Part shown: positions 1 through 60,058 of the stretch, piece by piece | Layout: each line of letters starts with the position of its first letter | Position numbering within the stretch: position 1 is the first letter of the stretch | DNA from: Macrocybe gigantea | Taxonomy: Eukaryota > Basidiomycota > Agaricomycetes > Agaricales > Callistosporiaceae | Assembly (NCBI GenBank): GCA_011319805.1 | Contig: SJRY01000310.1 | Span: 19,748 to 83,747 of the forward strand | Length of the DNA stretch: 64,000 nucleotides | Direction of reading: 5' to 3' | The notes under the pieces: generated by a model | Seen by the model: the letters and a program-made list of their open reading frames with translations, nothing else | Database searches by the model: none | What the model was told of the DNA's origin: nothing | Translations under genes and position numbers: made by a program

Positions 1-1602
1 CCAATTCCAATCTGAGGCATGCCCTCAGATCCATTAGTACGCCCGCCTCAGTTGGGGGCGACCCATCTAAAGTGAGAAATCTCGCTTCTTTGTCAGACAG
101 ACAGCGTGCTGTGCTCAAGTCCCCTCTCAAGGATCTGGTGGATCTAAAACCACCACTCTTTTTAACCACGGATTATTTCACTGATGCAAATAACCCGGGC
201 AGGTGGCTTGTCGATGAGTTTGGCAGTTGCTTTGAGATCCATAAGTTACTTGGCCGAGATGAGGACTCGGTCAAGGCTTATCGTGCATCGCTGGATCAGG
301 CACTTGCTCAGTGTTCAATCCAGCATGATTGCTCTTATGTGAGTAGTGATGGCTCCGTGCCTGCGAAAGCAGAAGCACTACTTAAGCAGTCTGTGTCAGC
401 TTCACGTGTGTATCGTGAGGGCAGACTGGTTTCCGAGATTCGTCAGCCAGTTGGCAAAGCAACGAGCGATGATGCTGAGCTTATTGGATTGCGAATAGCG
501 ATCCAGAAGGCTATCGCACAAGATGGAGTTAATTCTGTCATGTGCTTTTTGGACTCGATGAATGCAATCAATCGCATCATCGATGGTAACCCCCACTCTG
601 TGCAGTCGCATTCTATTGCACTGTGCAGATCATTGAAAGCTTGGCTCTCAGAAACTGAGCAGTGCCGGATTGAATTCTGGCACGTCCCTTCCAAATGGAA
701 GTGGACAATACAAGTTGAGGCCCACGAGTTTGCCCGGAGCCTTGACATCCCCCTGGGACTTCGTCCCCTCTATACCACTGACGGCCTTCGAAAGGAGGCT
801 GACGATAATATGCATAGCACTTGGTTCCAGAATTCCGGGAACAAGAAATATATTGGTGCTTCCACATTTCGTTTTCATGAAGCAGGAAAGCCAAATTCCT
901 ATGAACGCCCCTCTCGGAAGAGAATAGGCTTCATGAAGCTTGTGACAGAGAACGAGCTTTATGCTCGCTGTTCACGTCTCGCATGCGGCCATGCTCCGAT
1001 CAATGCGTATCGGGCACGGTTTAATTTCGTGGAGAGCGACTTATGCTCTTGCGGACAAGGGCCTGAAGACTCCGTCCACGTCATGACTCAATGCCGTAAC
1101 TGGCACAGGCCAACTGAACGCCAGTTTGACGCCTTTGTGCATCACTGGTTCATTAAGTATCTCGCATCTAATAAAGCTGCAGGTGCTTTCATTCCGGATC
1201 CAGGCGGCGGGTGACTGCCGTTCTGTAGCGGAGATTGTCCAGGGTGACCTAGGCAATCTTAAAACAGTCGGACCAGCGACCCAAGCGCTGATCGAGCACT
1301 ATGTGAAACGCAAACTTCGCGACAGTATCCGTTATAGGTCCTCTTGGACCTTTTACGTGGAACTGACCACATCCGGCCCTTTGGAGCTGGGGGACGGTGC
1401 TCGAGCGAGTGAGTACGCGCGAGCTCGAGTCATATGGTTCGAGCGCGGGCACGAGAGAGCAGGGCAGTGCAGCCCTCTATGTATTTTCCTTCAGTCTGGT
1501 TTGGATCGGACTCGTCGTATTTATAGTAGGTACCTGGGTGTATTTACAAGTGGACTGCCATCATGCACCGCTATATAAATTGTTGATTTAAAAAAAAAAA
1601 AA
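1..1602 (+). mobile_element. LINE copy A, 3' part with poly(A) tail
   Basis: This is the 3' end of the window's dominant Tad1-like LINE; the 5' part lies left of the window. It holds the C-terminal third of ORF2, a 3' UTR (1215-1589) and a 13-nt A run at 1590-1602. The 3' UTR contains the 16-nt perfect hairpin AGGTCC-TCTT-GGACCT at 1336-1351 and the terminal block ending CTATATAAATTGTTGATTT, both shared with the other copies. The next base after the A run is G at 1603, inside ORF1 of copy B, so A was probably inserted into B. The matching upstream target duplication would lie outside the window. Confidence 0.9.
3..1214 (+). CDS. LINE A ORF2 C-terminal part: RNase H domain and CCHC motif (partial, frame open)
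   Basis: The reading frame is open from the window edge to TGA 1212-1214. It starts with the linker after the reverse transcriptase and then carries an RNase H domain: SSDGS, DDAELIGL and FLDSMNAI supply the first three acidic residues. The usual fourth position, a GNExAD-type motif, reads VEAHEFA instead. A CxC-x7-H-x4-C zinc motif (CSCGQGPEDSVHVMTQC) follows near the end, as in other RNase H-bearing LINEs. RNase H would remove template RNA during target-primed reverse transcription. No frameshift is visible here, unlike most other copies. The missing 5' part prevents judging whether the gene is whole. Confidence 0.85.
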   Translation, partial: NSNLRHALRSISTPASVGGDPSKVRNLASLSDRQRAVLKSPLKDLVDLKPPLFLTTDYFTDANNPGRWLVDEFGSCFEIHKLLGRDEDSVKAYRASLDQALAQCSIQHDCSYVSSDGSVPAKAEALLKQSVSASRVYREGRLVSEIRQPVGKATSDDAELIGLRIAIQKAIAQDGVNSVMCFLDSMNAINRIIDGNPHSVQSHSIALCRSLKAWLSETEQCRIEFWHVPSKWKWTIQVEAHEFARSLDIPLGLRPLYTTDGLRKEADDNMHSTWFQNSGNKKYIGASTFRFHEAGKPNSYERPSRKRIGFMKLVTENELYARCSRLACGHAPINAYRARFNFVESDLCSCGQGPEDSVHVMTQCRNWHRPTERQFDAFVHHWFIKYLASNKAAGAFIPDPGGG

Positions 1603-3014
1603 GATGTTAACATGTTCTCCGTCCCTACTCTTCAGGGACCTCAGCATAAACTCGGAGCACATTTGCAGAGTATTGTAAATGCGCACCTTCCCTCGCGCGG
1701 GAAATCAAACTCGCTTTGCCGATCCGCCACTCATCACTCCCCTCTAGTACAGTGCGACCGGAGGACTCACGTTCAAACCAGGGCGCCCCACCTCCGAGAC
1801 CAGCTCGGAACCCAAACTGCCCTCCTCCACCCTCTCGTGCGCGATCTCGTTCCTGGACTCCTGGACATGGACTGCCTCCTCCGGTCAATAGGGCTACTTG
1901 CCCATCTTCCGGTAAGCGCTCCTATGCGCAAGCCCTGGCCCAACCGGCAACACTCCTGCCGAGGCTATTGTAGCCCTGGCAAAGACATTCCCACACCTCC
2001 CCACAGAGAAGATTGTCTCCCTGCAAAAGGAAGCAACCGGGAGCCGTCTGGACCACCTAAGAAGAAGGCGAAGTCCACCTCTCATGGACCGTCCCGTCGT
2101 AACGTCCGGGTCAGTTACTCTTTTCCGGCTGACAACGATTCTGTTGCCGCCGGAGCTCTCCTTAATGCCCTTAATAGGGCGTTGACCACTGGCAAGTCCT
2201 GGATTCGATGCGAATCTATCCAGGATCACTCGCCTCCTCGTTCTCTTGCTTGATGACAAGGGTGGCTTCTCCGAAAGACCTCAGCATTTTGCGTGAGGCC
2301 GCTCTCTGCTGTGCTCTGCAGGATCTACTGTCGAGCTCGCAATCCCGACAAGCGTTTCTTATTTGAAACTGCTCGACGTTCCCTATTTCAATGCCGATGG
2401 TAGCATTATCACTGCCCGGCAGGCTTACGAGATTCTCCGAGACTCTTCCTTCTCGGATCTCATTACTCTCGTTGGAGTACCGCGTGTCATGCGCAACTCA
2501 AGAATTCCGATACTGCAACCGTCTGGTTCAACATCGAAGACACGTCAACTGGCCAGAACGTAAAGGCTCTGGACAATTGTACAGTTATGGTCAGGAATTG
2601 GCGTTGCCAATTCAAGGCCGCTCTCTCTTCGCCGGGAGTTCCTCTTTGCGAACGCTGCTGGCGCTGGGGCACTCTGCATTGAAGTGCAACCAGCAATCTC
2701 TCCGCTGCCCGATCTGTGGGGAATCCCACAGAAAGGAACACCATCGTACCCTGGCGTCGTGCTGCAAGGCTCGACCCAAGGCTAACCCTCCTCGTGAGGC
2801 TACTCCAGCGGGCCAGCCCTGCCCTCATCCTCCTAAGTGTCTCAGCTGCAGCCGAGACCATTCCACCGACGACCGGAAGTGTCCCTTCTGGAAAAATCGC
2901 TTTGATCCAGATTGGATCAAGGAGCACTATAAGCTGGTACGTGATCGCAAACGATCAGGTAGCAATCATCCTAATGCCTCCCCGCAGCGTAATGCGGAGG
3001 CCGACGCATCATGA
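1603..3014 (+). pseudogene. LINE B ORF1 (gag-like, zinc knuckles), broken
   Basis: This is the C-terminal two thirds of the LINE ORF1 protein, an RNA-binding gag-like protein thought to coat the element RNA. Visible parts are the Pro/Arg-rich basic stretch, the KKKAKSTSHGPSRRN basic patch, and at the C terminus three zinc knuckles: CERCWRWGHSALKC-type (CX2CX4HX4C), CPICGESH and CLSCSRDHSTDDRKC. The frame changes at least four times (around 1700, 1960, 2250 and 2570), so no full protein can be made. The stop TGA (3012-3014) overlaps the ORF2 ATG (3011-3013). Confidence 0.85.
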
Positions 3015-5847
3015 GTGTCTCCTCGGGTAGCACAGCCTCGGCTGTGGTCCCCGGTTCAAGGGGACGTTCATTGATTTCTTCTTTTCGTATTTTCTCTCAG
3101 AATGTAAATAGAAAATATGTACACATGGACATGCTCCCCTCTACTCTCGGGAGGGATTATGATATTCTGTTTTTCCAAGAACCCGCTTGGAATCTCATAA
3201 GACACGCTCCGTCTGCCCTCAAGTTGAGGCGAGGCAGTAATTGGTGGTCCCACTCATCCAGACTGGACCTGTATCGTCCGATCATCTCTCGAGGATCCTC
3301 CTCGGGTTATGGCCTACGTACATAACAGGCTTCGTCGCCTGTGTCCATCCCTTCGTCGTGACCTAGTTGATAGTCGCGATCTTATGATTGTTAGCTTTGC
3401 CACCCCTGGCGAGCCTCTCTTTCTCGCTAATGCATACTCTGATGTGGATGCTAGCGCCATCCGTCTCTTGCATGATTGTGCAGAGCGTCCCGATTTCCCC
3501 AACTTGATTTATCTCGGAGGGGACTTCAATTGTCATTATGAACTCTGGGATGGAGTTCATAATTCGCAGCGGTCTCGAGGGGAGATGCTGTGTAATGCAG
3601 CTCTCGATCTCGGTTTGGAATGGTCGGAACCAGTAACCCTGGGCCGACGTTCATTTCACATAACCCCGAGCTCCGGCCCTTGGTTATTGACTTGATGTTC
3701 ATCCCCATTGATAGTGGGGATTGCCATCCTCGCATGATTGATGCGCTCAAGCTGACATCGGACCATGTCCCATTGTCACTTGTATTGGATGTTCCTCTGC
3801 TAGACCTATCCGTCCAGTGACGAACGTTAAGTAAGGACAGCATGCTGGAGTTTATATCCAATATTGCAGGTGATCTTCTCGGAATGGACATTGTCCCTAT
3901 CGAGACTAACAACGACCTCGAGAGCGTCTTGTCGACACTATCAAAGGCCATTGATCGAGCTTGGAACCTCCATTCTAAGGAATGCAAGCTCTCAAAACGG
4001 AGCAAGGGTTGGTGGAACCAACACTGCTCTGAGACTCTTGATACTTTCAGACAAACCCGGTCTGAAAGAGATCATCGCATCTGGCAGCGAGCTGTCAAAG
4101 ATGCTAAGTGCGCCTTCTTTGATCAACGGATCAGGGAGGTTGCAGAAAAGTCTCGTCGTCCATGGGATCTAGCTGCATGGACAAGGCAGAGACCCCTACC
4201 TGACTACGAAGCTATCTCGTTCCAGGGACAGCCTTGTAATTCTATCGAAGCGCTTTGGAATGCGCTTGATAAGTCTTATAATGCTGCGTCTGATCGCACA
4301 GTTAATTTGGATCGCCTCAATGATCTCGAAGCGCATCCAGTACGGGACTGGGTCCCGTTCTCTGCTACCGAGCTCCGAGAGTCCTTAGAGCCCTGTAGCA
4401 ATACGTTGGCACCAGGACCAGACCATCTGTCTTGGAACCACATCAAACAGCTGGTGAAATTTCCTCACATAGCTGCATTTATCTTGAACATTGCAAATGC
4501 ATGTCTAGATTTGGGGCACTGGCCCTCTTACTTCAAACAGAGTTTGTCGGTTATCATTCCGAAACCTGGCAAACCTGCATACGATACCCCGAAAGCCTTT
4601 CGTCCGATTGTGCTTTTGAATACCCTCAGCAAGCTCGTCGAGAAGATGCTGGCGCGATGTATGCAGTACGAAGCGACCAAATTTGCTGTCTTCGATCCAA
4701 AGCAGTTCGGCGGCATCCGTCAGAACTCAACTGAGGATGCTGGGGTCTTCCTTACCCATATCATCCGTCAGGGGTGGTCTAAAGGATTCAAAACGAGTGT
4801 CATCGCTTTTGATGTCACTCAGTATTTTCCTTCACTGAACCATCGTATGTTGGTAAAGATTCTTCAACATGGAGGCTTTGCACGACAGGTGTCAAAGTTC
4901 TTCGAATCATATCTCGTTGGGCGCAAAACTTCTTATGCCTGGCGTAGTGCTATCTCTCCAGAGTTCGATGCCGACGTGGGAGTTGGTCAAGGCTCTGCAC
5001 TCTCCCCAGTATTGTCAGTGCTTTACTTGGCACCGGTACTGAAACTTTATCAGAAAGCTGGTGATATGCCAGTAATCATGTCATTTGTCGATGACGGACT
5101 GATCATCGCTCAGTCCAAATCCACATCGGACAATGTTCCGAAACTGTAGAGGGCTTATGCCTCTGTGCATAACCTCTTCACTGACTTCGGTCTTGTTGTA
5201 GAACACAACAAGACTGAACTACAACACTTTTCACGCAATAGTATGGACCCTCGTCCGTCTATTGACTTGGGTTTTGCTCCATTTACGGGCAATACCCCGC
5301 TTCGACCCAAGAATGTCTGGCGATACCTTGGTTTCTTTTTGGACTCATGCCTTTCTTTTAAGGAGCATGTTCGATTCTATGCTACGAAGGCCTTGACTAC
5401 CGCCAGGGCCTTCCAAATGTTGGGCAATTCTGTTCAGGGCTTACCCCCTCAACAAAAACGCATTCTCTACTTGTCGTGCATGCGTCCCATCGCAACGTAC
5501 GGCTGTTTATTGTGGAACTTCAATGGCATGCGTAATGTCGCACTGTTGAAACAACTATGCCAAATGCAGTGCAAAGCATGCATTTGGATTAATGGACAGT
5601 TTCACACCACTCCTGAGGGTGCAGCTGAAACAATGGCCTGCGTCGAACCTATCGGCGGGTTCATTAAAAGGCTGAAAGTCAGCTCGTCTGCCCGCTTAGC
5701 TAACTCCAATCTGAGGCATGCCCTCAGATCCATTAGTACACCCGCCTCAGTTGGGGGTGACCCATCTAAAGTGAGAAATCTCACTTCTTTGTCAGACAGA
5801 CAGTGTGCTGCGCTTAAGTCCCCACTCAAGGATTTGGTGGATACAAG
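3011..5847 (+). pseudogene. LINE B ORF2 (endonuclease, reverse transcriptase), broken and 3'-deleted
   Basis: ORF2 starts at the ATGA overlap. The AP-type endonuclease motifs are all present but spread over frames: SQN, FQEPAWN, LANAYSD, GGDFNC, the FISHNPE region and SDHVPL. The reverse transcriptase follows with AFDVTQYFPSLNH (motif A), GQGSALSPVLS (motif B) and FVDDGL (motif C). TGA at 3818-3820 (CGA in sister copies) and TAG at 5147-5149 break the frame, as do single-base indels near 3230, 3275 and 3633. After KDLVD the sequence jumps to the 3' terminal block, removing RNase H. Both stops also occur in copy C. Confidence 0.88.
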
Positions 5848-5904
5848 CGGACTGCCAGCGTGCACCGCTATATAAACTGTTGATTTAAAAAAAAAAAAAA
5901 AAAA

Positions 5905-7641
5905 GATAGTTGCGATCTTATGATTGTTAGCTTTGCCACCCCTGGTGAGCCTCTCTTTCTCGCTAATGCCTATTCTGATGTGGATGCTAGCGCCATCCGT
6001 CTCCTGCATGATTGTGCGGAGCATCCCGATTTCCCCAACTTGATTTACCTCGGAGGGGACTTCAATTGTCATTATGAACTCTGGGATGGAGTTCATAATT
6101 CGCAGCGTTCTCGAGGAGAGATGCTGTGTAATGCAGCTCTTGATCTCGGTCTAGAATGGTCGGAACCCAGTAACCCTGGGCCGACGTTCATTTCACATAA
6201 CCCCGAGCTCCGGCCCTTGGTTATTGATTTGATGTTCATCTCCATTGATAGTGTGGATTGTCATCCTCGCATTCTTGATGCGCTCAAGTTGACATCGGAC
6301 CATGCTCTGCTGTCACTTGTGTTGGACGTTCCCCTGCTTGACTTATCTGTCCGGCATCGAACGCTAAGCAAAGATAGTGTGCCAGAGTTTATCTCTGACA
6401 TTGCTGCTGATCTTCTCGGGATGGACATAGTCCCTATCGAGACTAACAACGACCTCGAAAGTGTCTTGCTAACACTCTTAAAGGCTATTGACTGAGCTTG
6501 GAACCTTCATTCTAAGGAATGCAAGCTTTCAAAATGGAGCAAAGGTTGGTGGAACCAGCACTGCTCTGAGACCCTTGATACTTTCAGGCAAACCCGTACT
6601 GAAAGGGATCATCGCATCTGGCAGCGAGCGGTCAAAGATGCTAAATGTGCCTTCTTTGATCAGCGGATCAAAGAGGTTGCTGAGAAATCTCACTGTCCAT
6701 GGGACCTAGCTGCATGGACAAAACAGAGACCTTTACCAGACTACAAAGCTATCTCTTATCAGGGACAGCCGTGCAACTCTATCGAAGCACTTTGGAATGC
6801 ACTTGATAAGTCTTATAACGCTGCGTCTGATCGCGCAGTTAATTTGGATTGCCTTAACGACCTCGAAGCGCATCCGGTGAGGGACTGGGTCCCTTTCTCT
6901 GCTACAGAACTCCGAGAGTCCTTGGAGCCTTATAGCAATACATCGGCACCAGGACCAGATCATCTGTCTTGGAGCCATGTTAAACAGCTGGTGAAGTTCC
7001 CTCACGTAGCTGCATTTATCTTGAACATTGCAAATGCATGTCTAGATTTGGGGCACTGGCCCTCTTACTTCAAACAGAGTTTGTCGGTTATCATTCCGAA
7101 ACCTGGCAAACCTGCATACGATACCCCGAAAGCCTTTCGTCCGATTGTGCTTTTGAATACCCTCAGCAAGCTCGTCGAGAAGATGCTGGCGCGATGTATG
7201 CAGTACGAAGCGACCAAATTTGCTGTCTTCGATCCGAAACAGTTCGGCGGCATCCGTCAGAATTCAACTGAGGATGCCGGAGTCTTCCTTACCCACATTA
7301 TCCATCAAGGATGGTCTAGGGGCTTCAAAATGAGTGTCATCACCTTTGATGTTGCTCAATATTTTCCTTCACTTAACCACCATATGTTAGTGAAGATTCT
7401 TCAACACGGAGGCTTTGCACGACAAGTGTCAAAGTTCTTTGAATCGTATCTTGTTAGGCGCAAGACTTCCTATGCCTGGCGCAGCGCTATCTCTCCAGAG
7501 TTTGACGCCGACGTTGGGGTTGGTCAAGGCTCAGCTCTCTCTCCAGTATTGTCAGCGCTTTACTTAGCGCGGTGCTGAAATTATATCAGAAAGCTAGTGA
7601 CATGCCAGTTATCATGTCATTCGTCGATGATGGACTGATTA
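5905..7641 (+). pseudogene. LINE D, internal ORF2 fragment (endonuclease to reverse transcriptase)
   Basis: This ORF2 piece starts at the endonuclease motif preceded by DSRDLMIVSFATPGEPLF and ends inside the reverse transcriptase at FVDDGLI. It contains GGDFNC, SDHALL and a second ORF from 6844 with AFDV-type motif A (here TFDVAQYF) and GQGSALSP. A stop (TGA) at about 6493 and a frame change near 7570 break it. It is bounded on the left by the poly(A) of B and on the right by the poly(T) of inverted copy C, so both flanks are insertion edges. By eye its sequence is closer to H, K and M than to B and C. Confidence 0.82.
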
Positions 7642-12388: not shown

Positions 12389-12586
12389 TGAAAAACTCTA
12401 ATAAATCGGTGGATTTTCAGCTGATTTTCGCGATTTTAAGAACGGGGAGTGCTCAAGGATGTAGGTATCCAGATCTGCAACCTGATCAAAGATCGTCCCA
12501 AGTGTTGTCGCCGTAGAATGAGGAATGCGATTTGTGAGAGTTGTTTACAGTTGTTTACAAGTGGGGGTTGTGAAAAGAGAAGCGTT

Positions 12587-15369
12587 CAGCGGGGCAAAAT
12601 GTCTTCAAACCCATTCCCCTCCTCAGACAGTCATGCTTCTCAACCCCTAGAACTCATCCATTCTGATCTTTATGGCCTTCTTCCTGTTAAATCCCACTCT
12701 GGATTCAAGTATTGGGTTACTTTCATTGATGATTGTACCAGATTCAGAGTGGTGATACCTCTTAAACAGAAGAGTGATGCATTTGACGCCTTTAGACAGT
12801 TTAAGGCCTATGCTGAAAACCAACTTGGCTTAAAGATCAAAGCTTTACAGGATGACAAGGGTGGAGAGTACATGTCCAATGCCTTTATCAAATTCACCAA
12901 TGATTGTGGCATTATCCGGAGACATACTGTCAGGAATAGGCCTCAACAGAATGGAGTTGCAGAAAGAGCTAATCAGACTATGGCAGAAGAGTTAACTGCT
13001 ATGCTGTCTGAATCCAAGCTGCCTGCTTCATTCTGGGGAGATGGTCTTGCTTCTATGGTGCACATTTGGAACAGAGTACCTACTTCTGCTCTGTCTGGGA
13101 CTACACCTTATCAGGCTTGGTTTGGGAAGAAACCAGATGTCAGTCATCTCAGAATCTGGGGATGCACTGCATATGTCTTTGTGCAGAAGGATCAGAGGAA
13201 GAAACTGCAACCACACTACCAGAAATGTGTCTTTATTGGCTATCCTGATGGTTACAAGGGTTGGAAGTTTTACAATCCTACCACCAAAAAGACCATTATC
13301 TCGGAGAGGGCTGAATTTGATGAGAGATACTTCCCTGGTACCTCTCAGAAACATTATAGCACTCAACCTTCACTTATCCTTCCTCTTGACCCACCTGCCT
13401 TGCAACCAGTTTCTCCAGACTCAGCTGTGCTGGAGTTAGGGGGAGGCTTTGATACATCAAACCCTATTGTGCAAGCAGCTCCCTCTACTCCTGATCCAGA
13501 TCCTACCCCTCCACAAAGTCCAAATCTTCGTCCTAGAACGCCTCCTGCTATTCACCAGGATGATAACCTGCCCCACACACCTCCTGTTAGACACAGAGTC
13601 CCAACTCCACCACCTCTTCCCAAAACTCCGCCCATTGCTGTCAGGAAACCAGTCAGAAATGTCAAACCACCTGGTAATTGGTGGGTCATCAGACCTGCTC
13701 CACCACCAGTTCGAGATGATTCTGATTCAGAAGACTCAATTCATGAGGATCCTGATCCTAAGGCTGGTTTTGTGGATGTCCAATTTGCTGGTCTAGCTGA
13801 AGGTGCAAATCCAAGCACTTACAAGCAAGCTATGCAATGTCCGGATGCGCACAAGTGGCAGGAAGCATGTAATGAAGAGATTATGTCTCTTATAGGACAT
13901 GGAACATGGGAGATTGTGGACTTGCCTCCAGGAAAGAAGGCTATTAGTTGTGGATGGGTTTTCAAGGTTAAACACAATGCAGATGGCTCGATTGAGCACT
14001 ACAAAGCTCGATGTGTTGCTAAAGGTTTCAGTCAAAGACCTGGCATTGACTATACTGAAGTCTTTGCCCCCACATTTCGCCCTGCTGCCTTGAGACTTAT
14101 CCTAGCCATGGCTGGTATTGAGGACATGGAACTTCGTTCTGTAGATGTTACCTCTGCCTTTCCTAATGGTGATTTGGAGGAGGAGATTTATATGGTTCAA
14201 CCAGAGGGGTTTCACCAAGGTGGTCCAAACCAAGTCTGCAAACTCTACAAATCGCTTTATGGGCTTAAACAGTCCGCCAGACAGTGGAACAAGAAGCTAC
14301 ACTCCGTCTTATTGTCTATGGGATTCAAACGACTCGAATCTGACCGCTCTATCTACCTCTATGTCAAGGGGGAGGTAAAGGTCATTGTTCCCATTTACAT
14401 TGATGATATCACACTGGCTTCAAAGAACACTGCTGCTATTGACAAAGTGGTTGCAGAGCTGTCTAGGCACTTCAAGATCAGAGACTTGGGACCAAGCACT
14501 TTTTATTGGGTGTGGAGATTATTAGAGACAGGCAGAAGCGGACCATTGCACTTTCCCAGAAGCAGTACATCTTAAACACACTGGAGCGCTATGGGATGGC
14601 GGATTGCAAGCCTGTCAAGACACCTATGATGACAGGTCTTAACCTTTCCAAGGCAATGGCACCTCAGACTTCAGAGGAAGCGGACTTTATGAAGAACATC
14701 CCCTACCTCAGTGCTGTTGGATCACTCCAGTACTTAGCCACCATGACTAGACCAGATATAGCAGCTGCTGTGTCATGCCTAGGACGCTTCAACTCGAATC
14801 CTGGTCTACAGCATTGGAATGCAGTCAAGCATTTGCTGAGATACTGCAAAGGGACTTTGGATCTCAAGCTGACATACTCTGGAGATCTTGGTCCAGAGAT
14901 GTTTACATCATTCTGTGATGCTTCCCATGGTGATTGCCCGGACTCTGGACGCTCAACTGGTGGATATGTAACAATCCTTGGTGGTGGAGCTATTGGATGG
15001 TCATCCAAACTGCAGCCTTTTGTCACGCTTTCTACAACTGAAGCGGAGTATATTGCTGCAGTAGAAGCTGGAAAGGAGATCTTATGGATGCGCAACATTA
15101 TGCAGGAGATGGGATACCCTGTGTTGCAAGCATCACCACTCAAGATTGACAATCAGTCTGCACTGAGTGTCACAAAGAATCCAGAGCATCATGGGCGTAT
15201 GAAACAGCTGGATTTGCGATACTTCTGGTTTAGGGATACAGTGGAGCAGAAGAGGATATGGCCTGAGTTTATTCCAGGAACTGAACAAGTTGCAGACTTG
15301 TTAACCAAACCACTTACTGTACCAAAGGTGGAATTCTGTAGACAGAAAATGGGACTTGTAGGTACATAG
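12587..15369 (+). pseudogene. pol: copia polyprotein (integrase, reverse transcriptase, RNase H), one frameshift
   Basis: The integrase core shows the D-D-E set in HSDLYG, QDDKGGEY and PQQNGVAER. A long Pro-rich linker (about 13390-13740) leads to the reverse transcriptase, with SCGWVFKVK, VDVTSAFPNG (motif A), KSLYGLKQSARQW (motif B) and YIDDITLAS (motif C). At the T run around 14501 the frame shifts by one base. The conserved FLLGVEI motif is readable only across that break, so a base is missing from the run by mutation or sequencing error. RNase H follows in the second frame: SDxx is replaced by CDASHGDCPDSGRSTGGY, then STTEAEYIA and DNQSAL. The stop is TAG 15367-15369. Confidence 0.92.
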
Positions 15370-50116: not shown

Positions 50117-51952
50117 TTTTTTTTTTTTTTTTTTTTTAAATCAACAATTTATATAGCAGTACTCAATGGCAGTCTGCTTGTAAATACATGAAGGTACCTA
50201 CAATAAATACATGAAGTTTAGAGCCCTCCAAGTGGAGGACCCTTATCGCCGTCTCCTTTGCAGGATGGGCGCTAGACTAACCCATGGAATTCCGTGACTA
50301 GACTCTGGAATCAACTTGGATTCATAGACTGGATTAGTCATCCAGATGAACTGGCAGAGGATAAGTCCTCTCAGGCCAGAGTCAGGGGACTGCTCTGGTC
50401 TACCATGGTCCGAATTTTGGCCAGGAAGAGAGTTACCAGGTACATCAGCTGATAAGCCCCACCTACTTTATTTTTCCCGTTCCTGAGCACATGGTTCACT
50501 GATGCCCAGAAGGCGCAGATTCCTAATCGTATCTCAGGTCTCTGCCTTGCTAGTGTCCAGCCCCAGTATGCATCCTAGACCTAAGGCCTAGGCCAGGGAG
50601 TTCTACACCCATGCTTAACCCAGTTATGCATGCCCCACAAGGAGGTCTCAGGCTCCCACCTGAGCAGTGCTTTACGATCATGTGGTAGCTACCCCTGGGC
50701 CTGGGGACTCCCCAAGTGTGCCCAAGGACCGGTCCACACTACCAACGCTGACTAACAACCAGGTTCCCAGCCTGATCCAGTTGGTTAGACTGGGCATGAG
50801 ATTAACCGGTGGGGAGTGTCCTGTCCTAAGCTCACAGTCTGAAGAGACTCCCTATTACAGGGTGCATGGCACCTTCTGGAAGCACGCATGCTCTGGAACA
50901 CGCCATTACAGAGTGCGCATCATAGGTCAGGTAGTTCTCAAGTTCTTCTCCCGCTTACCGCACCCTGTGCTTTCGCTCCCTACTTGATCATGTGATTAAT
51001 CACGTGACCATTTCACAAAGTTTAGCCTGCCCCTTGCAGGAGAGGTGGCTTACCCCAGCTTCAGGCCTCACCCTCCATTGTGCTATGGAGGCGGCCCGTT
51101 ATCTGGAAGTTTCACACTTCGGATTCAACTTAAGCAGTTATCTGGGTGTATTATCCTAGGGACCACTGACAGAGGAGTTAGGTCTCTCGAGCCAAGGACT
51201 GGAGACTGTCCAGCCTTGCTATAGCCCAGCGGTATCAGGGGCATGACCTCCAGTCCTGCCTTTCCATCCCCCAGCAGATGGTTTGCAGATGCATCATATG
51301 TGTGGATTCCCATCTGTCTAAGGTCTCTGTCTTGCCATGTGCCTGCCAGACTGGCATCTGATATCACAGCAAGATTGCTCTTACTGAATGGGTCTGGATC
51401 TACTTCCGCCAACTTAAGCAGGTGATGTACTGCAGTGACTAACCTCTGTGGACCCCTACTTCAGGCAGCTCACATGGTACTGGGTACCCTGTTGGCTCAA
51501 ACGCCATTGGGTGGTTATCAGCCTGATTCCCGGTATGGTCCCTTATCCTTTTAGCCCCTACGCTTTGACATCGGGGATCACGTGTGGTCTGCTGGATTAA
51601 GGCATTATCCGGCACTTACGTTCCAAGGCCATCCACGCCAAGAGAAACCCAGTCATATGAGTTAGGGTCATGTGACATTTGACCCACATTGTGGAGTAAG
51701 TCACATGTGTGATGCATAACCTAGCTTACATCATGTGCCAGCTGCTTAGTCACATGACCAAGTCACCTCCCTTGTGGGAACAACTGTCACAGGGTCATGA
51801 TACTTCCTGCCTGCATCATGTGGAACCAGCTCCAGACACTTCCGAATGCAAACCTGAAGATGCCACCTCCAGGACTGGATCCTGTGGCTTCGTGGATTGC
51901 TACATCCACAGGACTACCTGACTGCATTTACCGCTATGCCAACCAGCCTCTA
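50117..51952 (-). mobile_element. Chimeric retroelement Q: tRNA-like head, long body, 75-bp LINE tail
   Basis: On the minus strand Q starts AGAGGCTGGTTGGCATAGCGG near 51952 and has a B-box-like GGATCCAGTCC. It runs through a body of about 1.74 kb and joins at 50212/50213 to the last 75 bp of the LINE 3' UTR and a 21-nt A run (T run 50117-50137). The body holds two related modules. The first ends in hairpin CCTGC-AAGGG-GCAGG plus CTAAACTTTG near 51018; the second ends in CCTCC-ACTT-GGAGG plus CTCTAAACTTC at the LINE join. The two flanks (P and R) do not share a target duplication. No protein-coding potential was recognised. Confidence 0.75.
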
Positions 51953-53598: not shown

Positions 53599-55158
53599 AT
53601 GAGCGATGATCCGCTCAATATTGTCGGTGGCGGTGGACCTCCACCGCTAAATCCCCACCTGGGTCGGACCCCCTCTGGTCCTTCTTGATCCTCTGCTCCA
53701 CCCCCAGCTCGCTCTGGAGATAGGAGCCTCCTCTTTCAAGGCGGCGACGGCCTTATGGACACTGACGACACTGGCCCTTCTAACACTGGCGGGTCTGCTG
53801 AACCCACTGTGCCCCCTCTCCGTCGATGCTGTCCACTGAGGCAGCTTACAATGACAATTCCATCAGGATAGCGATCTTTCCAGAAGGGCATCGGTTCCTT
53901 CACAGTGAAGCGAAGGCCACTACCGAGTCCCTCGCTGCCCTCAAGGATTGGATCCTTAAGGTCGGCAAAGCCTCTGTCTCCATTCTGGTGGGCTACCAGT
54001 TTGCCATCGCTGAGGGTATTGCGGCCCTGGTCGCCACTGCTGGCGATGTTAACATGTTTTCCGTCCCTACATTGGAGGGACCTCAGCATCAACTCGGTGC
54101 GCGCTTGCAGAGTATTGTGAACGCGCACCTCCCCTCTTGCAGGAAGTTGACCCGCTTCGCCAACCCTGCCGCTCACCACTCTCCTTCTGGTACTGTGCGA
54201 CCGGAGGACTCTTGTTCGAATCAGGGCGCTCCCCCTCCGAGACCAGCTCAGAACCTGAACCACCCTCCTCCACCCCCTCGTGCACGATCTCGTTCCTGGA
54301 CCCCTGGACGTGGACCGCCCCTCTGGTCAATAGGGCTACTCGCCCATCTTCCGGCAAGCGCTCTTATGTGCAAGCCTTGGCCCAACCGGCCAATACTCCC
54401 ACCGAGGCTATTGTAGCCCTGGCAAAAACCTTTCCACACCTTCCTGCTGAGAAGATTGTCTCCTTGCAAAAGGAAGCAACCAGGGAGCCATCGGGACCGC
54501 CCAAGAAGAAGGTGAAGTCCACCTCTCATGGACCGTCCCAGCGTAATGTCCGGGTCAGTTACTCTTTCCCAGGTGACAATGACTCCGTTGCCGCTGGAGC
54601 TCTCCTGAATGCCCTTAATAGGGCGTTGACTACTGGCAAGTCCTGGATTCGCTGCAAATCCATCCAGGATCACTCCGCCTCCTCGTTCTCCTGCTTGATG
54701 ACGAGGGTGGCTTCTCTGAAGGACCTCAGCATTTTGCGCGAGGCTGCTCTCCACTGTGCTCTGGCAGGTTCTACTGTCGAGCTAGCTATTCCGACGAGCG
54801 TTTCCTATTTGAAACTGCTCGACGTACCCTACTTCAACGCCGATGGCAGTATTATCACTGCTCGACAAGCTTATGAGATTCTCCGAGATTCTTCTTTCTC
54901 GGATCTCATTACTCTCATTGGAGTTCTGTGTGTTATGCGCAACTCTAAAAATTCCGATACTGCAACCGTCTGGTTCAATATCGAAGACACGTCAACTGGC
55001 CAGAATGTTAAAGCTCTGGACAATTGCACTGTCATGGTCAGGAACTGGCATTGCTGATTCAAGGCCGCCCTCTCTTCGCTGGGAGTTCCTCTCTGCGAAC
55101 GCTGTTGGCGCTGGGGGCACTCAGCTCTTAAGTGCAACCAGCAGTCCCTTCGCTGTCT
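53599..55158 (+). pseudogene. LINE S ORF1 (gag-like), broken; continues in O
   Basis: The start MSDDPLNIVGGGGPPPLNPH is at 53599. Codon 30 is TGA (53686-53688), the same as in K. A missing C near 53816, another frame change near 54320 and TGA 55055-55057 (CGA in sister copies) break the rest. The longest piece, 54137-55057, covers the linker, basic patch and central block with KLLDVPYFNADGSIITARQAYEILRD. The first zinc knuckle (CERCWRWGHSALKC) is present in the next frame before the U insertion. Confidence 0.87.
55144..55158 (+). repeat. Target-site duplication of U, left copy
   Basis: GTCCCTTCGCTGTCT, 15 bp, is identical to 56417-56431 after the poly(A) of U. The length equals the duplication around J, as expected if U was mobilised by the same LINE machinery. 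Confidence 0.93.
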
Positions 55159-56416
55159 AAGGGCTGGTTGGCGTAGCAGTAAACGCAAGTCAGGTAGTCC
55201 TGTGGCTGTGGCAAGCCACGAAGCCGCGGGTTCTAGTCCTGGAGGTGGCATCTTCAGGTTTGCATCCGGAAGTGTCCGGAGCTGGTTCCACATGACGCGG
55301 GCAGGAAGTATCATGACCCTGTGACAGTTGTTCCCACGAGGGAGGTGACTTGGTCATGTGACTAAGCAGCTGGCACATGACGTAAGCTGGGTTATGCATC
55401 ACACATGTGACTTACCCCACTATGTGGGTCAAGTGTCACATGACCCTAACTCACATGACCGGGTTTCCCTTGGCGTGGATGGCCTTGGGATGTAAGTGCC
55501 GGACAATGCCTTAATCCGGCAGACCACACGTGATCCCTGATCTTAAAAGGTAGGGGCTGAAAGGATAAGGGACCATACCGGGAATTAGGCTGATAACCAC
55601 CCGATGGCGTTTGAGCCAACAGGGTACCCGGTCTAAGTGGGAGCCGTTGGCAATGATCACGAGATGGTTAGTCACGTGCAGTATGCCAAAGGCAGCAGCA
55701 GATCCAGACCCGTTCAGTAAGGGCTTCCCCTGTGGGAACCTGTCATGGGAGGACCATGGACCTTGCTGTGATATCAGATGCCAGTCTGGGAGGCACGTGG
55801 CAAGACAGAGACCTTGGACAGATGGGGATCCACGCCTAAGGGCATCAGTGAACCATCTGCTGGGGGACGGGAAGGCAGGCACGTGGGTAGTGCCCGGACA
55901 CCGCTGGGCCGTAGCAAGGCTGGATAGTCTCCAGTCCTTGGCTCGAGAGACCTAACTCCTCTGTCGGTGGACCCTGGACTAATACAACTAGGTAACTGCT
56001 TAAGTTGAAGCCGGAGTGCGAAGCTCCTGGGCTAAACGGTCCGATCATAGGACTGGGCCTGGGCTAGCAGCCTCCCCCGCAAGGGGGGGGCTAAACTTCG
56101 GATCGAGCACTATGCGAAATGCAAACTTCACGACAGTATCCATTATAGGTCCTCTTGGACCTTTTACGTGGAACTGACCACATCCAGCCCTTTGGGGCTG
56201 GGGGACGGTGCTCGAGTGAGTGAGTACGCGCGAGCTCGAGTCATATGGTTCGAGCGTGGGCACGAGAGAGCAGGGCAGTGCAGCACTCTATGTATTTTCC
56301 TTCAGTCTGGTTTGGATCGGACTCGTCGTATTATAGTAGGTACCTGTGTGTATTTACAAGCAGACTGCCATTGTGCACCGCTATATAAATTGTTGATTTA
56401 AAAAAAAAAAAAAAAA
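55159..56416 (+). mobile_element. Chimeric retroelement U: tRNA-like head, body, 300-bp LINE tail, 15-bp TSD
   Basis: U is a complete 1,258-bp insertion between two identical 15-bp targets. It starts AAGGGCTGGTTGG with A-box-like TGGCGTAGCAG (55169-55179) and B-box-like GGTTCTAGTCC (55229-55239). The 942-nt body has no run of four or more T on the sense strand, so a pol III transcript would not end early. The body ends with CCCCC-GCAA-GGGGG (GNRA-type loop) and CTAAACTTCG at 56100. From 56101 the sequence is LINE 3' UTR, starting GATCGAGCACTATGCG, to a 17-nt A run. The structure is that of a template-switch chimera or very long SINE. Confidence 0.85.
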
Positions 56417-56735
56417 GTCCCTTCGCTGTCTGCTCTATGGGGAATCCCACAGAAAAGAACATTACTGCACCCTGGCATCCTACTGTAAAGCAAGACCCAA
56501 GGCCAACCCTCCTCGTGAGGCAACTCCGGCAGGTCAACCCTGCCCGCATGCTCTGAAGTGTCTTAGCTACAGCAAAGATCACTTCACTGATAACCAGAAG
56601 TGTGCCTTCTGGAAGAACCATTTTGATTCTGAGTGGATCAAACAACATTATCAGCTGGTATGTGATCGAGTACGATCAAGTCCCAAATATTCTAACACCT
56701 CCCCGCAGTGCAATGCAGAGGCCGACGCATCATGA
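56417..56735 (+). pseudogene. LINE O ORF1 C terminus (zinc knuckles, diverged)
   Basis: This is the continuation of S after U, starting at the second target copy. It encodes the second and third knuckles in degraded form: CLLYGESH (Cys replaced by Tyr) and CLSYSKDHFTDNQKC (again Cys to Tyr), so zinc binding is probably lost. It ends CNAEADAS with TGA (56733-56735) overlapping the ORF2 ATG. It is more diverged than S upstream, although the TSD shows they were one element. Confidence 0.82.
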
Positions 56736-56903
56736 GTGACACCTCCAGTGGGTTAGCCCCAGCTGTTGTCCCTGGATCAGGCAGGCACTCATTGATTTCT
56801 TTGTTTCGTATTTTCTCTCAAAACATAAATAGAAAATATGTACATATGGACGTTCTCCTTTCCACTCTTGGAAAGGACTATAATATCTTGTTTTTCCAAG
56901 AAC
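56732..56903 (+). pseudogene. LINE O ORF2 N terminus, cut by the LTR-like insert
   Basis: ORF2 starts MSDTSSGLAPAVVPGSGRHS and reaches the first endonuclease motifs RIFSQNINRKYVHMD and FFQE, then stops at AGAAC (56899-56903), the 5-bp duplicate. The matching continuation, AGAACCTGCTTGGAA, is P at 41949. In the ancestral order O and P were therefore neighbours. Confidence 0.83.
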
Positions 56904-56913
56904 TGTTAAACAG

Positions 56914-56917
56914 AAAA
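56914..56917 (-). terminator. Possible pol III terminator of the tRNA-like gene
   Basis: A TTTT run on the minus strand directly after the tRNA-like acceptor end is the standard RNA polymerase III stop signal. It supports the idea that the tRNA-like unit was once transcribed as a gene. Confidence 0.45.
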
Positions 56918-56919
56918 GA

Positions 56920-56978
56920 TGTCCTGACTGGGGATTGAACCCAGGACCTCCTGGACATATACCAGTAGCTCTACCACT
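56920..56978 (-). tRNA. 3' part of a split tRNA-like gene (B box, T arm)
   Basis: On the minus strand: GAGC, anticodon stem CTGG/CCAG with 7-nt loop TATATGT, then T arm CTGGG-TTCAATC-CCCAG (5 perfect pairs, B box GGTTCAATCCC) and acceptor TCAGGAC. The loop has A where U33 is expected; by position the anticodon would be UAU, but this is uncertain. TTTT on the minus strand (56914-56917) lies 2-3 nt past the end, as a pol III terminator would. It looks like a real tRNA gene captured in, or used by, the LTR-like insert. Confidence 0.62.
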
Positions 56979-59178
56979 TTTTTTTTTTTTTTTTATCAAC
57001 AATTTATATAGCGGTGCACGATGGCAGTCTGCTTGTAAATACACACCGGTACCTACTATAAATACAATGAGTCCGATCCAAACCAGACTGAAGGAGAATA
57101 CATAGAGGGCTGCACTGCCCTGCTCTCTCGTGCCCGTGCTCGACCTACACGACTCGAGCTCATGCGTACTCACTTGCTAGAGCCCCGTCCCCCAGCTCCG
57201 AAGGGCCGGATGTGGTCAGTTCCACGTAAAAGGTCCAAGAGGACCTATAATGGATGCTGTCGTGAAGTTTGCGCTTCGCATAGTGCTCGATCAGCGCTTC
57301 GGTCGCTGGTCCTGCTGCTTTAAGATTGCCTAGGTTGCCCCGGGCGATCTCCGCTACAGAACGGCAGTCACCCGCCGCCTGGATCCGGGATAAAAGCTCC
57401 CGCCGCCTTGTTGGATGCGAGATACTTAATAAACCAGTGACGCACAAATGCATCAAACTGGCATTCGGTTGGCCTGTGCCAGTTGCGGCACTGAGTCATG
57501 ACATGGACGGAGTCTTCGGGCCCTCGTCCACAAGAGCATAAGTCGCTCTCCACAAAATTAAACCGTGCCCGATACGCATTGATCGGGGCATGGCCGCATG
57601 CAAGTCATGCACAGTGAGCATAAAGCCCATTGTCTGTCACAAGCTTCATGAAGCCCATTCTCTTCCGAGAGGGTCGTTCATAGGAATTTGGCTTTCCTGC
57701 TTCATGAAAACAAATCGTGGAAGCACCAATATATTTCTTGTTCCCAGAATTCTGGAACCAAGTGTTATGCATATCATCGTCAGCCTCCTTTCGAAGGCCG
57801 TCAGTGGTAAAGAGGGGACGGATCCCCAGGGGGACGTCAAGGCTCCGAGCAAACTCGTGAGCTTCGACTTGTATTGTCCACTTCCATTTAGAAGGGACGT
57901 GCCAGAATTCAATCCGGCGCTGCTCAGTTTCGGAGAGCCAAGCTTTCAATGATCTGCACAGTGCAATAGAATGCGACTGCACAGAGTGAGGATTACAATC
58001 GATGATGCGATTGATTGCATTCATCGAGTCCAAAAAACACACGACAGAATTAACTCCATCTTGTGCGATAGCCTTCTGGATCGCCATTCGCAATCCAATA
58101 AGCTCAGCATCATCGCTCGTTGCTTTGCCAACCGGCTGATGAATTTCAGAGACCAGTCTGCTCTCACGATACACACATGCAGCGGCAACAGACTGCTTGA
58201 AGAGCACCTCCGCTTTCATGGGTACGGAGCCATCACTACTCACATAAGAGCAATCATGCTGGACCGAACACTGAACAAGTGTCTGATCCAGTGATACATG
58301 ATAAGCTTTCACCGAGTCCTCGTCTCGGCCAAGTAGCTTATGGATCTCAAAGCGACTGCCAAACTCATCGACAAGCCACCTGCCCGGGTTATTTGCATCA
58401 GCAAAATAATCCGTGGTTAAAAAGAGTGGTGGTTTCAGATCCACCAGATCCTTGAGAGGGGACTTGAGCGCAGTACGCTGCCTATCCGAGAGGGAGGTCA
58501 AGTTCTTTGACCTCGAGGGATCACCCCCCGCGATAGGCAGGGTGGTCAAAGCTCTGAGGGCATGGAGTTGGCCAGCCAGGCAGAGGACCTGACTTTCAAC
58601 CTTTTGATGAACCCGCCGATAGGTTCGACACAGGCCATCGTCTCAGCCGCACCCTCGGGAGTGGTGCGGAACTGTCCATTAATCCAAATGCAAGCTTTAC
58701 ACTGCATCTGGCATAGTTGTTTCAACAGTGCGATGTTATGCATGCCATTGAAGTTCCATAATAAACAGCCATACATTGCGATCGGACGCGCGCATGACAG
58801 GTAGAGGATGCGCTTCTGTTGAGGGGATAAGCCTCGAACAGAGTTGCCTAACATCTGAAAGGCTCTGGCGGTAGTCAGGGCCTTTGTAGCATAGAAGCGA
58901 ACATGCTCCTTAAACGAGAGGTGCGCGTCCAAAAAGAAACCAAGGTATCGCCAGACCTCCTTGGGTCGAAGGGGGTTATTGCCCATGAACGGAGCAAATC
59001 CCAAGTCGATAGACGGACGAGGGTCCGCACTATTGTGCGAAAAGTGCTGTAGTTCTGTTTTGTTGTGTTCTACAACAAGGCCAAAGTCAGTGAAGAGGTT
59101 GTGCACAAGTGCGTATGCCCTCTGCAGTTTCGGGACATTGTCCACTGTGGATTTGGACTGGGCAATAATCAGTCCATC
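56979..59178 (-). mobile_element. LINE copy N, 3' part, inserted in the tRNA-like gene
   Basis: N has its A tail as a T run at 56979-56994, a 3' UTR with AGGTCC-TCTT-GGACCT and a full ORF2 C terminus. It is cut in the reverse transcriptase (DGLIIAQS) by chimera W at 59178. Its 3' target AGTAGCTCTACCACT is identical to that at the 5' end of K (41782-41796). N and K are therefore probably the two ends of one insertion, or of duplicates of it. Confidence 0.86.
57368..59178 (-). pseudogene. LINE N ORF2 C-terminal part, broken
   Basis: It covers DGLIIAQSKSTVDNVPKL to the C terminus at TGA 57368. The upper block (58546-59178) ends in a 10-base deletion near 58560 within LANSNLRHA. The next block (57605-58549) holds the whole RNase H (SSDGS, DDAELIGL, FLDSMNAI) and ends at TGA 57605-57607, CGA in sister copies. 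The C-terminal block 57368-57553 has CSCGRGPEDSVHVMTQC. Confidence 0.87.
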
Positions 59179-60058
59179 AAGGGGTTGGTTGGCATAGCGG
59201 TAAACGCGAGTCAGGTAGTCCTGTGGCTGTGGCAAGCCACGAAGCCGCGGGTTCTAGTCCTGGAGGTAGCATCTTCAGGTTTGCATTCGGAAGTGTCCAG
59301 AGCTGGTTCCACGTGACGCAGGCAGGAAGTATCACGACCCTGTGACAGTTGTTCCCACGAGGGAGGTGACTTGGTCATGTGACTAAGCAGCTGGCACGTG
59401 ACATAAGCTGGGTTATGCATCACACATGTGACTTACCCCACTATGTGGGTCAAGTGTCACATGACCCTAACTCACGTGCAAGCACGTGATCCCCGATCTA
59501 AAAGGGTAGGGGCTGAAAGGATAAGGGATTATACCGGGAATTGGGCTGATAACCACCCGATGGCGTTTGAGCCAACAGGGCACCCGGTACCGTGTGAGCT
59601 GCCTGAAGTAGGGGTCCACGGAGGTTAGTCATGGCGCAGTACGCTTTGGCGGAAGTAGATCCAGACCCGTTCAGCTAAGGGCTTCCCCTGTGGGAACCTG
59701 TCATGGGAGGACCATGGACCTTGCTGTGATATCAGATGCCAGTCTGGGAGGCACGTGGCAAGACAGAGACCTTGGACAGATGGGGATCCGCGCCTAAGGG
59801 CATCAGCGAACCATCTGCTGGGGGACGGGAAGGCAGGCACGTGGGTAGCGCCCGGACACCGCTGGGCCGTAGCAAGGCTGGATAGTCTCCAGTCCTTGGC
59901 TCGAGAGACCTAACTCCTCTGTCGGTGGACCCTGGACTAATACAACCAGGTAACTGCTTAAGTTGAAGCCGGAGTGCGAAGCTCCTGGGCTAAACGGTCC
60001 GATCATAGGACTGGGCCTGGGCTAGCAGCCTCCCCCGCAAGGGGGGGGCTAAACTTCG
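59179..60058 (+). mobile_element. Body of chimera W (tRNA-like head to hairpin end), fused to LINE T
   Basis: W is the same body as in U (880 nt here, with a deletion near 59475 and a variable stretch near 59600). It has the same start AAGGGGTTGGTTGGC, a B-box-like GGTTCTAGTCC, the same CCCCC-GCAA-GGGGG hairpin and the identical end CTAAACTTCG at 60058. No run of four or more T occurs on the sense strand. From 60059 the sequence is LINE ORF2 (AATAGAAAATATG), not the 3' UTR as in U. W-T is thus a chimera with a much longer LINE part. Confidence 0.83.

Follow-up and report, generated by a model that had tools for sequence, protein, structure and literature searches.

A SINE-like repeat with a fixed 3' end joined to many different points of a LINE in the basidiomycete Macrocybe gigantea

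How does one non-coding sequence come to be joined, by one fixed 3' end, to different points of a LINE? The question is raised by three elements, U, Q and W-T, in a 64-kb window of Macrocybe gigantea, the whole stretch of 64,000 nucleotides that was analysed. In U, the body, here called A, is non-coding, 942 nt long and ends in the fixed sequence GGCTAAACTTCG (55159-56100, forward strand). It continues into the 5'-truncated 3' end of a LINE with its poly(A) (56101-56417, forward strand), starting at about position 6043 in a numbering where the full LINE is ~6.36 kb. The 5' target-site duplication AGTCCCTTCGCTGTCT (55143-55158, forward strand), within an older LINE ORF1 copy, is a direct repeat of the 3' one (56416-56431, forward strand); an earlier note on this DNA had described it as perfect, which is correct, and as 15 bp long, where 16 are measured. 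In W-T, A (59180-60058, forward strand) lacks its positions 300-368 and is joined at LINE position 2162, near the start of ORF2 as the same note had claimed, to LINE sequence that reaches the end of the window and contig (60059-64000, forward strand). Its apparent insertion target is an older LINE copy (LINE 6358-4149; 56978-59179, reverse strand). Twin priming was dropped for W-T because its LINE continues past position 6000 in a single direction. In Q, which lies on the reverse strand, A (51018-51952) belongs to an older subfamily with 86% identity to the nearest A compared. It is followed by a segment of a repeat B (50214-51017), 804 nt of non-LINE sequence from a 5'-truncated tRNA-headed SINE ending in a hairpin and CTAAACTT, and by a LINE tail with poly(A) (50117-50213; LINE ~6269 to the end). 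Because B lies between the end of A and the LINE tail, Q is A plus B plus LINE tail; it has the start and the A end in common with U and W-T, but its A is not joined directly to the LINE as theirs is.

The genome contains 68 matches to the A-end pattern and 103 to the A-start pattern. The examined DNA covers 60 of these 68 A-end places; the other eight lie outside the count, and the sequence of one (C233) is clearly not that of A. Among 74 A-like ends examined, 72 continue in the sense direction into the LINE (64) or into B (8). The 68 usable joins fall at 58 different points (51 independent LINE points and seven B points), and the remaining ten reuse the point of another copy, some perhaps through duplication. 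A constant A end combined with such a scatter of LINE points is far more than chance would give, and this bears out the central claim of the earlier note; neither a constant LINE position nor random body ends, both of which were looked for, was found. Two copies, L031 and L032, are 99.5% identical in A and yet enter the LINE at 1059 and 4799, respectively. It is highly improbable that the chimeras are an ordinary SINE or LINE variant or the products of DNA-level recombination between repeats, a reading that the 58 points in 68 joins contradict, although the ten reused points speak for it and the common 5' flank of L031 and L033, whose LINE points differ, indicates that some copies have been reshuffled.

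Target-site duplications also speak against recombination. They are 12-17 bp long, near the expected length of about 15 bp, and are present in eight of 31 A chimeras tested and in a ninth copy, L048, with a long A; three of the nine carry one mismatch. The nine copies have nine different LINE points, and their repeats abut A on one side and poly(A) on the other. Because the duplications surround A, LINE and poly(A) together, each of the nine represents one retrotransposition. No duplication was found in 23 of the 31 chimeras tested, several of which have their 3' end interrupted or outside the examined DNA. At the 5' joint, one to four bases lie between the duplication and GGGCTGG in all eight copies inspected, and one G in L048. 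The extra base is a single G in three copies and is perhaps part of A.

The fixed 3' boundary of A consists of a hairpin followed by CTAAACTTCG; the terminus reads ...GGCUAAACUUCG, with CUAAACUUCG as the end sequence, and carries neither a LINE-like tail nor its own poly(A). In U, the hairpin has a 10-bp stem and a 4-nt loop (56069-56092, forward strand), with an 8-nt tail ending in CTTCG directly 3' of it, and the last 73 nt of A fold with z = -3.1. The consensus sequences of the pol III promoter are TRGYNNANNNG for box A and GWTCRANNC for box B. The head of A in U contains a full match to the former, TGGCGTAGCAG (55169-55179, forward strand), and matches eight of nine positions of the latter with GTTCTAGTC (55230-55238, forward strand). 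Box A is fully matched in all seven A heads, in five of the six others tested as the variant TGGCATAGCGG. Judged from these sequence features, A is best read as a tRNA-headed, SINE-like repeat whose A and B boxes resemble those of pol III promoters, so that the donor RNA, previously called unrecognised, can be given a kinship. A is probably transcribed by pol III, and its RNA may end at the fixed boundary. At 0.94-1.2 kb, A is long for a SINE. ARAGORN found no tRNA in the 64-kb window and, at low stringency, gave only conflicting calls on the heads, which were discarded; Rfam gave nothing at gathering score in the window and, on A and Q, only matches far below it. Termination by pol III where A ends was rejected, as GGCTAAACTTNNTTTT with one mismatch has 22 genome matches against 25 for a control. 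Its sole exact match, in L029, is the poly(T) tract of an inverted LINE, and visual inspection of L094 and L095, identical one-mismatch matches, showed no likeness to A outside the pattern. The absence of TTTT from A is not significant, since 53% of shuffles also lack it. One copy, L037, is shortened at its 3' end by about 30 nt.

Neither a free A copy without LINE or B nor a donor locus was seen among the 74 ends examined, which cover 60 of the 68 A-end places in an assembly that is perhaps incomplete; both had been proposed as checks. The absence of free copies and of a LINE-like tail would suit a host housekeeping non-coding RNA that is captured repeatedly and is not itself mobile, whichever route joins it to the LINE, and A at about 1 kb and non-coding resembles the WEIRD sequence of Magnaporthe as described in the available part of PMC2104539. 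We consider this unlikely. Both forms of A, of about 942 and 1197 nt, have recent copies (pairs 98.7-99.5% identical), and older copies diverge by 8-14% from their nearest relative among those compared; A also has a domain and an end motif in common with SINE B, and no donor locus was seen in the DNA examined.

B has the same end motif as A, with its 3' end formed by a hairpin and CTAAACTT, and a 77-bp domain in common with it. Box A is fully matched in three B copies (L091-L093) and box B in L093 only. B enters the LINE at a fixed point: 50 of 54 exact B ends lie at one LINE point, and the other four are outside the count. B thus looks like a conventional tRNA-headed, LINE-tailed SINE: the model of an ordinary SINE with a fixed tail is accepted for it, whereas the 58 points in 68 joins lead to its rejection for A. 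A resembles tRNA-derived LINE-tailed SINEs in its tRNA-like head and the A and B boxes there, in its presumed dependence on a partner LINE and in the central domain in common with B, but they have a fixed LINE tail, whereas A has none and carries LINE pieces that vary between insertions. B combines an end motif like that of A with a single, constant LINE point, and suggests a way in which an ordinary SINE could arise from such a join. The eight A-B joins are those of Q, L055, L064, L066, L072, L074, L077 and L086, and in Q, L074 and L077 B continues to its LINE tail to give three-part A-B-LINE chimeras.

We lean towards the view that A is a tail-less, SINE-like RNA captured by the LINE reverse transcriptase through template jumping. 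With LINE RNA or the RNA of the LINE-tailed SINE B as template, the LINE protein would begin target-primed reverse transcription and continue as far as a G[CGT][CT] site in that RNA. The reverse transcriptase would then move to an A RNA, entering at its 3' end and copying it to its 5' end, so that the product would be A, a 5'-truncated LINE (or B) and poly(A) between target duplications. The fixed end, variable points, sense orientation and duplications in nine copies are what the earlier note expected of template switching, and we infer from them the switch to A during reverse transcription. This joining has been used repeatedly in several A subfamilies. In L035, the end of A is followed by about 22 nt that resemble LINE sequence (best match 19/22 in the DNA examined), then by the last 19 nt of A and finally by LINE, a layout expected from repeated jumps.

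The joins themselves are sharply defined. They are blunt, without extra bases, and the first LINE base is that of the reference copy in 63 of 68. The LINE points are scattered, as had been claimed, but not random: G[CGT][CT] stands on the LINE or B side just 5' of the join at 47 of 58 points against 9% expected, with GCC or GCT at 28 of 58. At other LINE breakpoints, a control that contains both truncations and sites where a later insertion interrupts the LINE, and from which one A join was dropped (45 to 44), the motif occurs in 5 of 44, although G at -3 alone is raised there too (18/44, exceeding the ~24% found across the LINE). The join points do not differ in RNA structure from other G[CGT][CT] sites, and hairpins at them do not explain pausing. 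The codon phase of the LINE points (17/12/11) has no clear bias. At the stricter setting, only two LINEs that are plainly truncated and carry a target duplication were found, both in L047 (3094 and 5425), and neither fits the motif; a third candidate, in L035, appears at a looser setting only; these are too few to say whether plain truncations use it.

A serious rival to template jumping, though a less probable one, is joining at the RNA level before reverse transcription. LINE or B RNA would be cut after G[CGT][CT], A RNA would receive the downstream fragment at its 3' end by ligation or trans-splicing, and the chimeric RNA would be retrotransposed from its poly(A) as far as the start of A. 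The motif is sharp and the A/LINE joins are blunt whereas the 5' joint carries extra bases, a contrast for which sequence-specific cleavage and joining of RNA would account no less well than a jump. The motif's near-background frequency at the control breakpoints, the invariably sense orientation and the intact 5' end of A in 30 of 31 copies (the exception is L029, and selection by best match favours full length) also fit. RNA ligation before retrotransposition has been proposed for U6/LINE-1 chimeras in the available part of PMC13174262. However, L035 and the A-B-LINE chimeras would require several joinings per RNA, no nuclease or splice rule was identified for G[CGT][CT], and G at -3 is somewhat raised in the controls as well. 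G at -1 is absent from all 58 independent join points, so there is no AG acceptor, and spliceosomal (SL-like) trans-splicing is rejected.

MINE elements of Magnaporthe, for which Fudal et al. 2005 is also cited, are the closest known kind to the A chimeras. The parallel had been drawn before, and both anatomy and join motif support it. In the available part of Gogvadze et al. 2007 (PMC2104539), MINE consists of WEIRD, a non-coding RNA of ~1.1 kb, proposed to be a host RNA and called not a transposable element, fused as the 5' part to the LINE MGL. Like A, WEIRD is fused in sense to a LINE 5'-truncated at many points, with target duplications; a LINE-tailed SINE serves as another partner, one element has three parts, and there is no solo donor copy (PMC2104539). 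The MINE join sites are given there as GCC*A/U, and G[CGT][CT] fits 13 of 14 sites taken from Table 3 (PMC2104539). The MINE host is an ascomycete, whereas that of A is a basidiomycete; A joins have no A/U preference at +1, unlike those of MINE (PMC2104539). A is represented by 68 ends and 103 starts, MINE by 33 bipartite elements; A also falls into several subfamilies that differ in age, unlike MINE, and has a tRNA-like head and SINE kinship where the available text states none for WEIRD (PMC2104539). U6/L1 and other mammalian small-RNA/L1 chimeras, in the available parts of PMC4476161 and PMC13174262, likewise have a full-length small RNA in sense 5' of a truncated LINE, target duplications and poly(A). 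Their U6 donor is a host snRNA, whereas A has no non-chimeric copy among the 74 ends examined. U6 snRNA copies in mammals are mostly non-chimeric.

It is possible, although we hold this only tentatively, that A and MINE-WEIRD are two cases of an unrecognised class of tail-less SINE that reproduces only via blunt joining of its fixed 3' end to the RNA of a LINE or SINE, cut or halted after G[CGT][CT]. If so, the presence of the motif in both an ascomycete and a basidiomycete would stem from a single enzymatic step that has been conserved. This step may be the cleavage and joining of RNA before reverse transcription, with chimeric RNAs built and then copied. When a LINE reverse transcriptase switches template, this is usually regarded as an accident; here, and perhaps in MINE too, such switching may be the sole spreading route of a non-coding repeat lineage through subfamilies of different age. 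The join motif common with Magnaporthe makes the choice between template jump and RNA ligation directly testable.

As for the partner LINE, the named relatives of its ORF2 are agaricomycete. LINE segments also lie 5' of A in four copies (L032, L037, L044 and L045).

The element U consists of body A (55159-56100), a 942-nt non-coding repeat that closes with a 10-bp hairpin and the end GGCTAAACTTCG, and of a 3' part that starts at about LINE position 6043 and runs into poly(A); a perfect 16-bp repeat lies on either side of it. In W-T, A (59180-60058) is followed by the LINE from position 2162 up to the contig end. The earlier note had read both of these and Q as A fused to the LINE, which describes U and W-T correctly, whereas Q is a tripartite element on the minus strand made of A (51952-51018), a second, tRNA-headed repeat B (51017-50214) and the final ~90 nt of LINE sequence with poly(A). 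The claim that a fixed A end meets varying LINE points is real, and a genome-wide table makes it stronger than could be seen from the window.

In the assembly searched (41.2 Mb, 333 contigs), a 16-base pattern of the A start occurs at 103 places (control pattern, 2) and a 20-base pattern of the A end at 68 (control pattern, 3), 60 of which are covered by the table. A similarity search gave at least 48 matches; because it scored 40 of 139 candidates, these counts are lower bounds. After removal of exact duplicates, 74 A-like ends were examined, and a sense LINE follows 64 of them and a sense B eight. The remaining two are a spurious match at the locus L044 and an end at L029 that adjoins the poly(T) stretch of a LINE in inverted orientation. 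The L029 copy (1501-2220) is shortened at its 5' side (from A 246), and its fixed 3' end meets the poly(T) directly. The dinucleotide after CTAAACTT is CG in 48, TG in 12, CA in 12 and another in two of the 74 ends, the pattern that decay by deamination would give were CG a part of A. In nine of 72 joins (L025, L026 twice, L035, L041, L055, L067, L075 and L077), the first 16-150 nt past A fail to align with the reference LINE or B, and these are mostly old copies or subfamily differences. With four rows left out of the motif count (two of L026, one of L035, and L077), the 68 joins retained fall on 58 points more than one base apart, and the LINE points span 15 to 6249.

The joins share a sharp motif on the LINE or B side. 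Read from other copies, the base at -3 is G in 51 of the 58 points, and neither A at -2 nor G at -1 occurs in any of them. G[CGT][CT] precedes the join at 47 of 58 points where the expectation is 9.3% (binomial p about 3e-38), at 36 of 40 with a close reference copy, at 42 of 51 LINE and 5 of 7 B points, and at 30 of 39 CG and 17 of 19 non-CG ends. Other LINE breakpoints, used as a control, fit in 5 of 44 cases (G at -3 by itself, 18 of 44). Of LINEs that are simply truncated, two have clear target duplications and neither fits, a number too small for a conclusion. Sites that serve as joins and those that do not look alike in predicted RNA structure. In 63 of 68 joins the first base past CG agrees with the reference copy, indicating that the joins are blunt.

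Target duplications of 12-17 bp, one copy before A and one behind the LINE poly(A), enclose 8 of 31 elements tested (U, L033, L035, L021, L025, L028, L030 and L042, with one mismatch in L035, L025 and L030) and were not found in the other 23. The long-A element of L048 is a ninth case, and the nine elements, each the product of a single event, have nine different LINE points. Their structure requires that the A 3' end and the LINE or SINE piece unite before or during target-primed reverse transcription. We favor, with modest confidence, a template jump to A RNA during reverse transcription, because of the three-part elements and of L035, where at about 2400-2490 (reverse strand) an A end, a ~22-nt LINE-like piece, a second copy of the final 19 nt of A and the LINE from ~5181 succeed one another, apparently through several switches in one event. 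Less probably, the RNAs would be joined first and reverse-transcribed afterwards; for U6/LINE-1 chimeras, PMC13174262 cites a proposal of RNA ligation. The sharp motif speaks for such prior joining, as do the blunt joins, unlike the 1-4 bases that separate the target duplication from GGGCTGG in all eight copies compared and, as one G, in L048; three of these gaps are a single G that perhaps belongs to A. Some copies were reshuffled by later recombination, since L031 and L033 have a common flank and differing LINE points. In L032, L037, L044 and L045, A is immediately preceded by a same-orientation LINE whose position in the LINE is lower than that of the part behind A; a nested insertion, a deletion or one more switch may account for this.

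The A chimeras belong to a known kind, that of the MINE elements of Magnaporthe, in which WEIRD sequence is fused to the MGL LINE. MINE join sites are reported as GCC*A/U by Gogvadze et al. (PMC2104539), and G[CGT][CT] fits 13 of 14 sites taken from its Table 3. Searches of open-licence papers turned up no description of comparable elements from basidiomycetes. New here are the probable fungal phylum, together with the SINE-like donor, its several subfamilies and a join motif that is sharp and was set against a control.

A box A-like site, TGGCATAGCGG or a sequence close to it, is present in each of the seven A heads tested, with a box B-like GTTCTAGTC about 60 nt from it. The B head is tRNA-like, with TAGCCCAGTGG in L091-L093 and GTTCGATTC in L093. 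There are 54 exact B ends in the genome, and the 50 that were inspected all lie at one LINE point, ~6269; by this fixed point and its head, B resembles an ordinary SINE with a LINE tail. Common to A and B are a 77-bp stretch (78% identity) and the terminal hairpin with CTAAACTT. A occurs in forms of ~942 and ~1197 nt, with recent pairs in each (99.5% and 98.7%), and older forms are 86-92% identical to their closest relative among the copies compared. The long form (L042 from 4809, reverse strand; L045 at 6326, L046 at 1491 and L048 at 464, plus strand) contains segments 303-370 in repeated form and has its own scattered LINE points. Judged from sequence, a SINE-like lineage lacking its own tail fits A better than a single host gene does.

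The LINE reference is the window copy 35232-28851 (minus strand). ORFs of the LINE encode an endonuclease domain (PF14529) and a reverse transcriptase domain (PF00078), and Pfam gave no match for the LINE ORF1 tested or for a C-terminal ORF2 piece. Named relatives of the ORF2 protein are agaricomycete, the closest from Candolleomyces and Coprinellus (38-39% identity), so that the DNA probably comes from a mushroom-group fungus. Two LINE copies in the window, 1603-5904 (plus strand) and 12584-7639 (minus strand), have an internal deletion in common, from about 4898 to 6287-6297. At 12449-15369 (plus strand), ORFs resemble copia-type integrase and reverse transcriptase, as judged from translations alone.
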